From Exiguobacterium profundum (GTDB taxonomy: Bacteria; Bacillota; Bacilli; Exiguobacteriales; Exiguobacteriaceae), in the NCBI RefSeq assembly GCF_001909285.1, contig NZ_MRSV01000001.1:2509096-2573095 (forward strand): DNA of 64,000 nt. Direction: 5' to 3'. The notes under the pieces are model-generated. The model made no database searches. It saw nothing but the letters and a program-made list of their open reading frames with translations, and was not told the DNA's origin. Both the position numbers and the translations under genes were made by a program. Shown piece after piece: positions 35,613 through 38,361 of the stretch (the first letter of the stretch is position 1; each line of letters opens with the position of its first letter).

Positions 35613-37079
35613 ATGAAACAAATCGTAGTGATTGGGGCTGGTCTCGGTGGACTAAGCGCCGCCGTCACGCTCGCAGCACGAGGTTATGACGTCACGGTCA
35701 TTGAAAAGAATCAACATGTCGGTGGCAAACTCATGCCCATTATAACCGACGGTCACCGGTTCGACTTTGGTCCAAATACGATCACGATGCCGGATGTATT
35801 TCGTTCAGTCATTCGAAATAGCGGGGCCAATCCGGATGACTATTTTGAGTTAATCAAGCTCGATCAACATACCGTCAACCACTACACAGACGGGTCATCC
35901 TTCACGTTCAGTGCCGATCGGGCAAAACTTGAGGTCGAAGTACGGCGTTTGACCGGTGACCAGTTGAAACACAATCAGATGCGCGCCTATCTAGATGAAG
36001 CTGAAAAGCTGTTCGACATTGCGAATAAGCGCTTCTTCACACAAATGGACACAAAGTTGGATCCCGGTCTTTGGGCGGACATGGTCAAAGTGCATCCACT
36101 TCAAAGTTTGCACGCCCTTCACAAGAAGTATTTCAAGGACCCACGCATTATTCAGGCGCTCGACCGCTATGCGACGTACATTGGTAGCAGTCCATACGTG
36201 ACGCCAGGTACGTTCGCCCTTATCGCACATTTGGAATTGAATGAAGGTGTCTATTTTGCGAAAGGTGGAAACTGGAATATCGCAAAAGGGTTCGCCAAAC
36301 GGGCGAGCGAACTCGGAGTGACGTTCCGACTCGGTCATGAAGTGACGAAAATTGATGTGTTGAACGGAAAAGCACATGAGGTCGTCGTCGATGACCAAGA
36401 AGTCATCTCGTGTGATGCCGTTCTTCTCAACGGTGAACTCTTGACGCAATACCCACGACTCGTCGACGCAAAAGACCGACCATCTTTCCCGGTCCCGACA
36501 CGCGACACGGTCGAACCTTCCATTTCCGCATTCGTCATGATGGTCGGATTGTCCAAACGATTGAACTTGGCACACCATAACGTCTATTTCTCAGACGACT
36601 ATGAACGGGAATTTAAAGCACTTTTCCAAGAAGAACGTTATGCGGACGAACCGACAATCTATATTTCGAATTCATCCGCAACCGATCCGTCGATGGGCGA
36701 GGCAGGAGACAACCTGTTCATCCTCGTCAATGCGCCGGCACATCTGACCGACATTGATGCAGATACGTATGAGCATTTGATTCGCAGACGATTACGTATG
36801 TTCGGTGTGGATTGGGAAGAAGAAGAGGTGCTCTACCATAAACGGGTGACCCCACAAGATTTGACCCGTGATTTTTATGCGTATTATGGCGCACTTTATG
36901 GCACATCGGCCAACTCGAAAAAAGGGGCATTTTTTAGACCTGCACCGCGATCGACAGATGTATCGAACATCTGGTTCGCTGGCGGTTCGACTCATCCTGG
37001 CGGTGGCAGTCCGATGGTGACGCTTTCAGGACAATTCGCTGCACGATCGATGTTAGAGGACATACCTCTGACAATATGA
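35613..37079 (+). CDS. CrtP/CrtNb-like diapocarotenoid oxidase (phytoene-desaturase family)
   Basis: The protein is 488 residues from ATG 35613; the ribosome site is AAAGGGGGA, and the frame to 35541 lies inside crtQ. The FAD-binding motif VVIGAGLGGLSAAVTLAARG starts the protein. YIGSSPYVTPGTFALIAHLE, LAHHNVYFSDDYE and the C-terminal FAGGSTHPGGGSPMVTLSGQ match the CrtP (CrtNb) branch better than the CrtN branch, since CrtP also ends NPGGGMPMVTLSGQ. CrtP oxidises terminal methyl groups of diapocarotenoids to aldehydes or acids. It ends the plus-strand unit; no terminator hairpin is seen before the RNA promoter at 37107. Confidence 0.85.
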   Translation: MKQIVVIGAGLGGLSAAVTLAARGYDVTVIEKNQHVGGKLMPIITDGHRFDFGPNTITMPDVFRSVIRNSGANPDDYFELIKLDQHTVNHYTDGSSFTFSADRAKLEVEVRRLTGDQLKHNQMRAYLDEAEKLFDIANKRFFTQMDTKLDPGLWADMVKVHPLQSLHALHKKYFKDPRIIQALDRYATYIGSSPYVTPGTFALIAHLELNEGVYFAKGGNWNIAKGFAKRASELGVTFRLGHEVTKIDVLNGKAHEVVVDDQEVISCDAVLLNGELLTQYPRLVDAKDRPSFPVPTRDTVEPSISAFVMMVGLSKRLNLAHHNVYFSDDYEREFKALFQEERYADEPTIYISNSSATDPSMGEAGDNLFILVNAPAHLTDIDADTYEHLIRRRLRMFGVDWEEEEVLYHKRVTPQDLTRDFYAYYGALYGTSANSKKGAFFRPAPRSTDVSNIWFAGGSTHPGGGSPMVTLSGQFAARSMLEDIPLTI

Positions 37080-37106
37080 ACATTTTGTGAACGCGAGTTT
37101 CGACAC

Positions 37107-37135
37107 TTGTCGACAATTGAAAGACGTGATAATAT
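37107..37135 (+). promoter_or_regulatory. Promoter of the candidate C-rich-loop RNA
   Basis: -35 TTGTCG (37107-37112), 17 bp, -10 TAATAT (37130-37135). Transcription should begin near 37142. Confidence 0.6.
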
Positions 37136-37141
37136 CATATT

Positions 37142-37470
37142 CGAGTTCAAGCAGTTCTGTAGCGTTTGTTACACCTGTAGCGATCGAATGGCTTCCCCGA
37201 GCCTCATCGCGTTTTGAACTTGTCACACCCGAGAAAAAGTGATGAGCGAGTTTCCCCACTCGTATCCCGTAGTTGAGACAGCTTGCGTATGATGTTCCCC
37301 CTTAGTCCATCAAGCATCCTGTTTCGACGAAGATGTCCCAACTGATTCATTCCCCATGAATCCCGGCACATCTTTAGGGCTTCATCACAAACCGATTCAT
37401 TCGTTTCCCCGATGAATGAATCACATAACGCTTACGCCACTTTTGGTCCCCCGCCAAAAGTGGTTTTTTT
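37142..37470 (+). ncRNA. Candidate regulatory RNA with six C-rich (UUCCCC) loops
   Basis: No ORF with a ribosome site explains this 440-bp gap. The predicted transcript has: (1) GCGAT/ATCGC plus GGCT/AGCC closing loop UCCCCG (37180-37210); (2) CGAGU/ACUCG closing UUCCCC (37247-37262); (3) UGAUG/CAUCA closing a loop with UUCCCCC (37290-37312); (4) perfect 7-bp GAUUCAU/AUGAAUC closing UCCCC (37344-37362); (5) perfect 9-bp GAUUCAUUC/GAAUGAAUC closing GUUUCCCCGAU (37394-37422); (6) terminator CCACUUUUGG/CCAAAAGUGG closing UCCCCCG, then seven U (37437-37470). A long-range pair AGUUCAA/UUGAACU (37144-37150 with 37214-37220) closes the 5' domain. Repeated unpaired C-runs are anti-Shine-Dalgarno elements in RNAs such as RNAIII and RsaE. 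It is not tmRNA, RNase P, SRP or 6S RNA as far as I can tell. Confidence 0.65.
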
Positions 37471-37482
37471 GCGTACAAAAAA

Positions 37483-37508
37483 CTGTAGACGCCATCGAGC
37501 GTCTACAG
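37483..37508 (-). terminator. Terminator of crtM
   Basis: A perfect 10-bp stem (37483-37492 with 37499-37508) is followed on the minus strand by TTTTTTG, just beyond the crtM stop. Confidence 0.88.
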
Positions 37509-37521
37509 GGAATCGAATCGC

Positions 37522-38361
37522 TTATAGTTTTGCCAACAACTTTCCTTTTTGTAAGGTCGATACGTATGCCCGCTTTGTAAAGACGTCATGTCGATTCGCA
37601 CGTGCCGCATCAAGAATCCCTTCATAGAGAAGAGCCGCTGCTTGTACCGGCTTTCGACTCGCGAGTGGATACAGATGATGGGTTTCGCGTGCCCGTTCAT
37701 ACAAGAACTCTGCACGATTCGCCAACGCCTCCCATAGATCGATAAAGACAGGGGTCACTTCTCGTTGGTGTAACATCGCTTCACTCACACCGTACTGACG
37801 CATCATCGTACGGGGTAAATAGATGCGGTCTCGATTCAAATCTTCACCGACATCACGTAAAATATTGGTCAGTTGCATCGCAATGCCAAGGTCGATGGCG
37901 CCTTGCCTTAGCTGACGTGTCGTCGCAGCGTCCTGATTTGGGACAAGGATCGGGAGCAGCATCAGACCGACCGTGCTCGCTGCATAATAGCTATACTGCT
38001 CGGTCTCTTCGAGCGTTTCATACCGCGACTTATGTAAGTCCCATTTCATCCCTTCCGCCAATTCAAAAAATGGTTCGACGTCCATGTCATAACGTTTCCA
38101 TACATCACGAAGGGCAACCCATAGTGCTTCATCTTGGTCGTAACCAGCTAAAAAGCGGTCGAAGTCATGCAAAAATGCTGTCAAACTCTCTTCTGGACGG
38201 TCTGATTCATCGACCGCATCATCGAGGGTGCGACAGAAAGTATATACTGCCATGACCGCTTGACGGTCTGGTTTTGAGAGCAAAGAGAAGGCCCGGTAAA
38301 AGGTTAACGAGCCCTTCTTCATGATTTCCTCACATTGACGATACGCTTCTTGTGTCGTCAC
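37522..38361 (-). CDS. crtM: CrtM-like dehydrosqualene (4,4'-diapophytoene) synthase
   Basis: The 279-residue squalene/phytoene synthase family protein has KKGSLTFYRAFSLLSK at the N-terminus and the two Asp-rich magnesium motifs DDAVDES (first) and QLTNILRDVGED (second). CrtM joins two farnesyl diphosphates head to head to give 4,4'-diapophytoene, the entry to C30 carotenoids. The two partner CrtN-like genes upstream and the CrtQ/CrtP-like genes opposite support C30 over C40. The start overlaps the upstream crtN end by 32 nt. It is last in the minus-strand unit. Confidence 0.9.
   Translation of the reverse strand: MTTQEAYRQCEEIMKKGSLTFYRAFSLLSKPDRQAVMAVYTFCRTLDDAVDESDRPEESLTAFLHDFDRFLAGYDQDEALWVALRDVWKRYDMDVEPFFELAEGMKWDLHKSRYETLEETEQYSYYAASTVGLMLLPILVPNQDAATTRQLRQGAIDLGIAMQLTNILRDVGEDLNRDRIYLPRTMMRQYGVSEAMLHQREVTPVFIDLWEALANRAEFLYERARETHHLYPLASRKPVQAAALLYEGILDAARANRHDVFTKRAYVSTLQKGKLLAKL

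Follow-up and report, generated by a model that had tools for sequence, protein, structure and literature searches.

The 64,000-nucleotide stretch of Exiguobacterium profundum DNA analyzed here (hereafter, the window) carries, at the 3' end of a carotenoid desaturase gene and facing crtM, a plus-strand RNA gene whose existence is, on sequence grounds, as sure as comparison allows. Positions 37080-37520 are without a supported open frame, and the RNA starts approximately 60 bases past the desaturase stop codon. The locus was compared among 38 genomes of the family, 19 from the host's own genus and 19 from a second genus, and its features, with the hairpins numbered H1 to H6, are as follows.

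Ends at 37079, plus strand: crtI-family carotenoid desaturase gene, identified by family search
37075-37091, plus strand: direct repeat TATGAACATTTTGTGAA, ResD-type by resemblance, present in 38/38 homologues
37107-37112, plus strand: -35 box TTGTCG (TTGTAC in the second genus), from sequence and homologue comparison
37130-37135, plus strand: -10 box TAATAT after a spacer of 17 bases, from sequence and homologue comparison
37141-37470, plus strand: the RNA, from the conserved start TCGAGTTCAAG to the end of the T-run, in 38/38 family genomes, fold z -8.84
37144-37220, plus strand: 5' domain with the closing stem AGUUCAA (37144-37150)/UUGAACU (37214-37220), enclosing H1, from the folds
37190-37203, plus strand: H1, GGCU-UCCCCG-AGCC, with GACU/AGUC around an identical loop in 18/38
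37247-37262, plus strand: H2, CGAGU-UUCCCC-ACUCG, invariant in the own genus
37290-37312, plus strand: H3, UGAUG-UUCCCCCUUAGUC-CAUCA, with loop complementarity to the ribosome-binding site of sucC
37330-37374, plus strand: H4, GAUUCAU-UCCCC-AUGAAUC (37344-37362) within an outer stem (37330-37336/37368-37374), with compensatory changes
37394-37422, plus strand: H5, GAUUCAUUCGUU-UCCCC-GAUGAAUGAAUC, with compensatory changes
37437-37470, plus strand: H6, the terminator, CCACUUUUGG-UCCCCCG-CCAAAAGUGG followed by seven U
37522-38361, minus strand: phytoene/squalene-synthase-type gene (crtM), identified by family search

An earlier note on this DNA had proposed that a promoter (TTGTCG, 17 bases, TAATAT) and a strong terminator bracket the RNA. 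Both were recovered, the former at 37107-37112/37130-37135 and the latter, with its seven T, at 37437-37470, and both are kept in the two genera, the -10 box becoming TAACAT in some own-genus species and TACGAT in most of the second genus. A promoter scan is by itself no evidence (3 found versus 2.7 expected); terminator-like sites numbered 6 against 2.5 expected. The 5' end of the RNA is expected near 37142. Over the -35 box (37100-37113) lies a palindrome, TCGACA-CT-TGTCGA, which is present in 19/19 own-genus genomes, absent from the second genus, and possibly an extra operator. At the other end of the locus, a minus-strand terminator belonging to the crtM operon occupies 37483-37508 of the window, and in the second genus the RNA terminator has an A-run before its stem and a T-run after it and may serve both strands.

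The RNA is found at the same locus in all 38 family genomes. By DNA search the stretch is present once in each of the 19 own-genus genomes, where the RNA part averages 94% identity per column and sequence conservation ends after the T-run. The same search of the second genus returned no true counterpart, just matches of 28 to 31 bases in 4/19 genomes; reading of the junction beside crtM revealed the RNA counterpart in 19/19, with the start TCGAGTTCAAG and the box spacing kept, H1 and H3 recognizable, and much of the remainder rewritten. The 28- to 31-base matches, which join the RNA promoter and 5' end (37131-37161) to sites near base 1501 of L039-L042 in four second-genus genomes, are antisense to a gene named by reading as glutamate dehydrogenase and were judged to be chance; at up to three mismatches, own-genus matches of that segment comprise the RNA locus itself and, in G009, a single additional site. 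The 5' half was also modeled by covariance from 20 of the homologues, which match by construction; the model matched 38/38 family genomes and 0/360 other Bacilli genomes, the latter searched under the tighter filtering applied to large sets. A gapped pattern, run against GTDB release 220 with each species represented by a single genome, gave 24 matches, all of them Exiguobacterium. No Rfam family matched 37060-37520 at E values up to 10, in agreement with the earlier suggestion that the RNA is none of those already known.

The plus strand from 37144 to 37472 folds with z = -8.84, none of 100 shuffles being as stable; the minus strand, over the longer stretch 37080-37480, gives z = -3.16, likewise with 0/100 shuffles as stable. 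The two second-genus RNAs examined also fold better than their shuffles (z of -6.38 and -6.67), and second-genus folds include the closing stem of the 5' domain. Sequence and fold bear out the six C-rich loops that had been described, at 37194, 37252, 37295, 37351, approximately 37406 and 37447, together with the perfect stems (7 bp in H4; 9 bp plus three further pairs in H5) and the C-rich loop of the terminator, UCCCCCG in H6. The loop of H3 starts UUCCCCCUUAG in 38/38 homologues, with its stem passing from GAUG/CAUC to GACG/CGUC, and H2 of the second genus presents ACCCA or CCCCA loops carried by several different stems. In H4, 12/19 own-genus genomes lack pairing at the innermost position of the outer stem, and the loop reads UCCCU in one genome. 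The 10-bp stem and loop of H6 are invariant in the own genus, and the second genus has a different stem with a UCCCCG loop; H4 and H5 of that genus likewise enclose C-rich loops with different stems.

Each of the 38 homologues has six or seven runs of at least four C, and these are nearly invariant, with 1/38 having lost one C (in H4). When a stem score of 4 or more is required, 98.3% of the 240 C-runs fall in hairpin loops, versus 32.2% in shuffles of all letters outside the C-runs, and C-run bases (n = 1018) have a mean unpaired probability of 0.93, versus 0.31 for other C (n = 2588). As judged from these alignments and folds, the comparison shows that selection keeps the count (six or seven) of accessible C-run hairpins across two genera while the stems are rewritten.

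Conservation of the stems had been named in advance as a check on the proposal, and in relatives the stems are indeed kept with compensatory changes around nearly constant C-runs. Within the own genus, a 59-pair structure covers 1120 cells, 98.7% of them standard pairs, and five pairs have changed on both sides, a number reached by 1/500 shuffles; further pair types are not above shuffles (487/500 as high), and no both-sided change is found in seven of the nine helices. Across both genera, both-sided changes affect 23/69 pair positions, and the 1463 cells comprise 1372 Watson-Crick, 83 G-U, 2 A-C and 6 other combinations; the two-genus pairing patterns fix some innermost stem letters and thereby favor those pairs, an effect of which the 59-pair own-genus count is free. 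The 83 G-U versus 2 A-C stem cells point to the plus strand, the strand originally favored, as that of the RNA. The absence of a supported open reading frame likewise held, in that no frame of at least 18 aa is common to the nine homologues listed. In the four second-genus homologues listed, a GTG frame of 19 to 73 aa has a common start, and this frame is missing from the own genus; a peptide gene was rejected given the lack of a frame common to the nine and the position of the second-genus frame in the unchanged 5' domain of that genus.

With a promoter and terminator of its own, no shared frame, and unpaired UCCC-type loops, the RNA has the sequence characters of a C-rich small RNA (sRNA) that blocks Shine-Dalgarno (SD) sites, and it very likely belongs to that class. 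Several members of the class offer comparison. RNAIII of S. aureus is long and structured, at least three of its hairpin loops bear UCCC and pair with SD sites, and it encodes delta-haemolysin and serves quorum sensing (PMC3861533); unlike the peptide-coding RNAIII, the present RNA has no frame common to the homologues listed and sits at a carotenoid locus. LhrC of Listeria binds the SD region through several redundant UCCC sites, three in number and including the terminator loop (PMC4132741). The present RNA has six or seven C-runs and a single copy per genome, against three sites and five gene copies for LhrC, and the search of Rfam families at E values up to 10 gave no match that would place it in LhrC. 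RosA and RsaI, stand-alone sponges of C-rich sRNAs in the RoxS/RsaE network (PMC8216469), carry G-rich regions where this RNA carries C-rich ones. RoxS/RsaE (RF01820) likewise possesses C-rich SD-pairing regions, and sucC is a proven target there and a predicted one here; the RsaE model spans 112 positions versus approximately 330 nt, and the RNA does not match it. Accessible C-rich regions complementary to SD sites are present, as in RoxS/RsaE, and the RNA, although outside the RsaE family by the model test, probably works like RsaE. Known kin have three such sites (LhrC) or at least three UCCC loops (RNAIII), and the six copies of the motif, earlier called unusual, are a larger number of an element already known. 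The open-access literature searched yielded neither a report linking Exiguobacterium with RsaE nor, among the matches listed, a described single sRNA of the C-rich class in the genus, and the available portion of one survey counts predicted Exiguobacterium sRNAs and names no single one (PMC10837837).

A clue to the regulation of the RNA, and one that the earlier note does not contain, is provided by the direct repeat upstream of its promoter; the first half of the repeat overlaps the desaturase stop codon. In 38/38 homologues (25 counted by script pattern and 13 own-genus rows, with a TTTGAA first half, by eye) the repeat lies 48-49 bases before the start region, in the form TGTGAA(A/C)GTTATGTGAA in the second genus and T(A/T)TGAACATTTTGTGAA in the own genus. 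In B. subtilis, a conserved sequence lies near -65 of roxS, which is activated by ResD and responds to nitric oxide (NO), and S. aureus rsaE behaves in the same way (PMC4409812); B. subtilis roxS is also repressed by Rex from an inverted-repeat site (PMC5419742). No printed ResD consensus string was found in the open-access literature, among the matches listed. The host genome contains a res-type operon, with a ResB family match, a response regulator, and resA-, resC- and resE-like neighbors named by reading. Sites of the repeat type precede this operon (at resA), a cytochrome bd subunit I gene and a COX2-type oxidase gene, as well as genes for alanine dehydrogenase and an MFS transporter. Genome-wide, the repeat pattern with one mismatch occurs at 71 sites versus 33 for its mirror, of which 45 were viewed (ten loci picked by eye), plus the resA site and that of the RNA itself; 16 of the first 30 sites fall within long open frames, indicating that many matches are noise. 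Several TGTGAA-type repeats also stand at L144:720-1054 (G000:C1 about 2679920-2680253), before a frame of approximately 50 aa with the leader GATCGGGGGATAAT; with its membrane-like stretch, this frame possibly encodes a small protein under the same control as the RNA.

The same kind of repeat is found at a diverged roxS/rsaE homologue that lies at a separate locus, L141 (G000:C1:2293600-2295600), on the minus strand near 2294850, with own-genus counterparts at L272-L290. The Rfam RsaE model matches this homologue weakly in 4/38 genomes (35.6 to 39 bits against a cut-off of 79), and RF01820 exceeds the cut-off in none of the 38. Its 5' end is present in 19/19 own-genus genomes, and at up to three mismatches in none of the second genus, in which there is one weak model match. 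In 19/19 own-genus genomes the roxS homologue is preceded, at 50 bases, by CGTGAACA(A/T)TATGTGA, a spacing close to that between the RNA and its own repeat. This repeat, common to both promoters, suggests which signal the RNA may answer, and ResD control of the RNA is likely. The two differ at their 5' ends, in that the local roxS start GTGTGAAATCAATCACAAAC, by reading, carries a Rex-type inverted repeat, whereas reading of the 5' ends of the 38 RNA homologues revealed no TGTGA...TCACA inverted repeat.

Potential targets were considered among 426 called leaders, sampled from the window and 400 kb of the host genome. GGGG occurs in 87/426 of these leaders and GGAGG in 139/426; on the former count, roughly one gene in five could be within reach of the C-loops, and complementarity of the loops to SD sites is plausible. 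With self excluded, the 10-base complement of H3 occurs at five places in the host genome and six in G023, and 10 of these 11 places are SD positions. In the host genome the matches, with extensions, reach 14 bases at sucC, 15 at a sugar ABC permease gene, 13 at ribF and 11 at a 143-aa gene of unknown function; the fifth site is off a start codon, on the minus strand of L185 near base 1500, directly before a terminator-like hairpin. Those of G023 lie at amino-acid-dehydrogenase-type, E2 acyltransferase, cytochrome c551, pyridine-nucleotide oxidoreductase, AgcS carrier and DUF350 genes. The 10-mer itself is not enriched (6 versus 9 for the mirror in the host genome and 7 versus 17 in G023, the RNA's own copy being counted), and a G-rich 10-mer lies at SD sites in any case; the notable points are how far the H3 match extends and which genes are listed, both judged post hoc.

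Among the best of these predicted partners is sucC. The 14-base H3-sucC duplex is valued at -28.4 kcal/mol versus -22.7 for the best of the 426 sampled leaders, a comparison in which the ranked leaders were picked by the H3 10-mer and the independent part is the extension beyond it. The sucC leader has two G-runs, reading AAAGGGGACTAAGGGGGAA in 19/19 own-genus genomes and CTAAAGGGGTTAAGGGGGA in 11/19 second-genus genomes examined (L222-L251 holding leaders of both genera), and H3 pairs with the second. In the own genus, approximately 60 bases before sucC show hardly any change, and conservation of the H3 site is not special there. In the second genus the H3-sucC pairing is weaker (-17.9), and the own-genus loop fits that leader better (-21.6). 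sucCD is a direct target of RoxS (PMC4409812) and is reported as a target of RsaE (PMC10433868). The C-rich region of the local RoxS scores -13.5 on the own-genus sucC leader, with 37/426 leaders scoring better, and its fit to the two G-runs is similar (-13.5 and -12.4). Adjacent sucC sites for the RNA and RoxS are possible, and sucC as a target of the RNA in the own genus is a fair bet. Autoregulation of the crt genes found no support; the desaturase leader scores high for H3 (-18.0), but it was found in 5/19 own-genus loci, in four as AAGGGGGACA and in L006 as GAGGAGG. The earlier proposal of a multi-target translational repressor is partly supported: SD complementarity is plausible and the H3-sucC match long, the direct evidence concerns H3, and the other five loops may act on SD sites as well.

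We consider it probable that the RNA represents a family of trans-acting, C-rich, SD-blocking sRNAs of the Exiguobacterium family, controlled by ResDE and standing beside RoxS. A sigma-A-type promoter would be activated by ResD through the repeat at 37075-37091 under low oxygen or nitric oxide, and the transcript would end at its own terminator and fold into at least six hairpins that offer unpaired UCCCC or UUCCCC. These loops would pair with G-rich SD sites and so block ribosome entry. H3 would be the most specific loop, its best predicted partners being sucC (TCA cycle), ribF (FAD synthesis) and the sugar permease gene, and the RNA and the local roxS homologue would together reduce central metabolism in response to disturbed respiration. 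A more elaborate version, which we advance tentatively and regard as rather doubtful, makes the RNA a multivalent hub: each of the differently flanked C-loops would address its own group of SD sites, selection would preserve the count and exposure of the loops as the stems are freely rebuilt, and H3 and RoxS would share the sucC G-runs, placing the TCA cycle under the joint control of two ResD-linked RNAs. The unexceptional fit of the local RoxS to sucC renders this version less likely.

Among the alternatives, an RNA of the same C-rich SD-blocking kind that obeys another regulator, and has targets outside redox metabolism, is unlikely but deserves weight. The own-genus palindrome over the -35 box may bind such a regulator, the promoter repeat is short and common, and the H3 10-mer is not enriched, so that the sucC match could be a coincidence of a G-rich SD site. 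The palindrome, however, is absent from the second genus, while the repeat is kept at the same distance in both genera and recurs before roxS in 19/19 genomes, and the sucC match extends over 14 bases. Far less probable is a decoy that titrates G-rich sponges of the RosA/RsaI type, or other G-rich RNAs, and thereby protects RoxS; a multi-loop C-rich RNA would compete for the G-rich sponges of C-rich sRNAs (PMC8216469), but the length of the H3-sucC match argues for pairing with mRNA. It is more improbable still that the sequence is simply the 3' untranslated tail of the desaturase transcript, serving only for protection or termination. The proximity of the RNA start to the desaturase stop codon would fit a tail, and read-through from the crt operon may occur in addition to initiation at the RNA's own promoter, yet the promoter boxes and upstream repeat are kept in both genera, and a tail has no need of six accessible C-loops.

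Very remote, finally, is a minus-strand RNA that titrates CsrA with GGGGA loops in the manner of CsrB/RsmY, for although GGA stands in every minus-strand hairpin loop, the CsrA motif has an A two bases before GGA where these loops have G, the minus strand would need the reverse of the 83 G-U to 2 A-C ratio, and the conserved start region and T-run, with no conservation beyond the latter, belong to the plus strand.

On the preferred reading of a ResDE-controlled, SD-blocking sRNA, Exiguobacterium, a widespread extremophile genus, gains a strong candidate regulator for which both a signal and a target can be tested. The roxS homologue and the RNA, which carry the same kind of promoter repeat, would additionally permit a direct test of many versus few seed loops.
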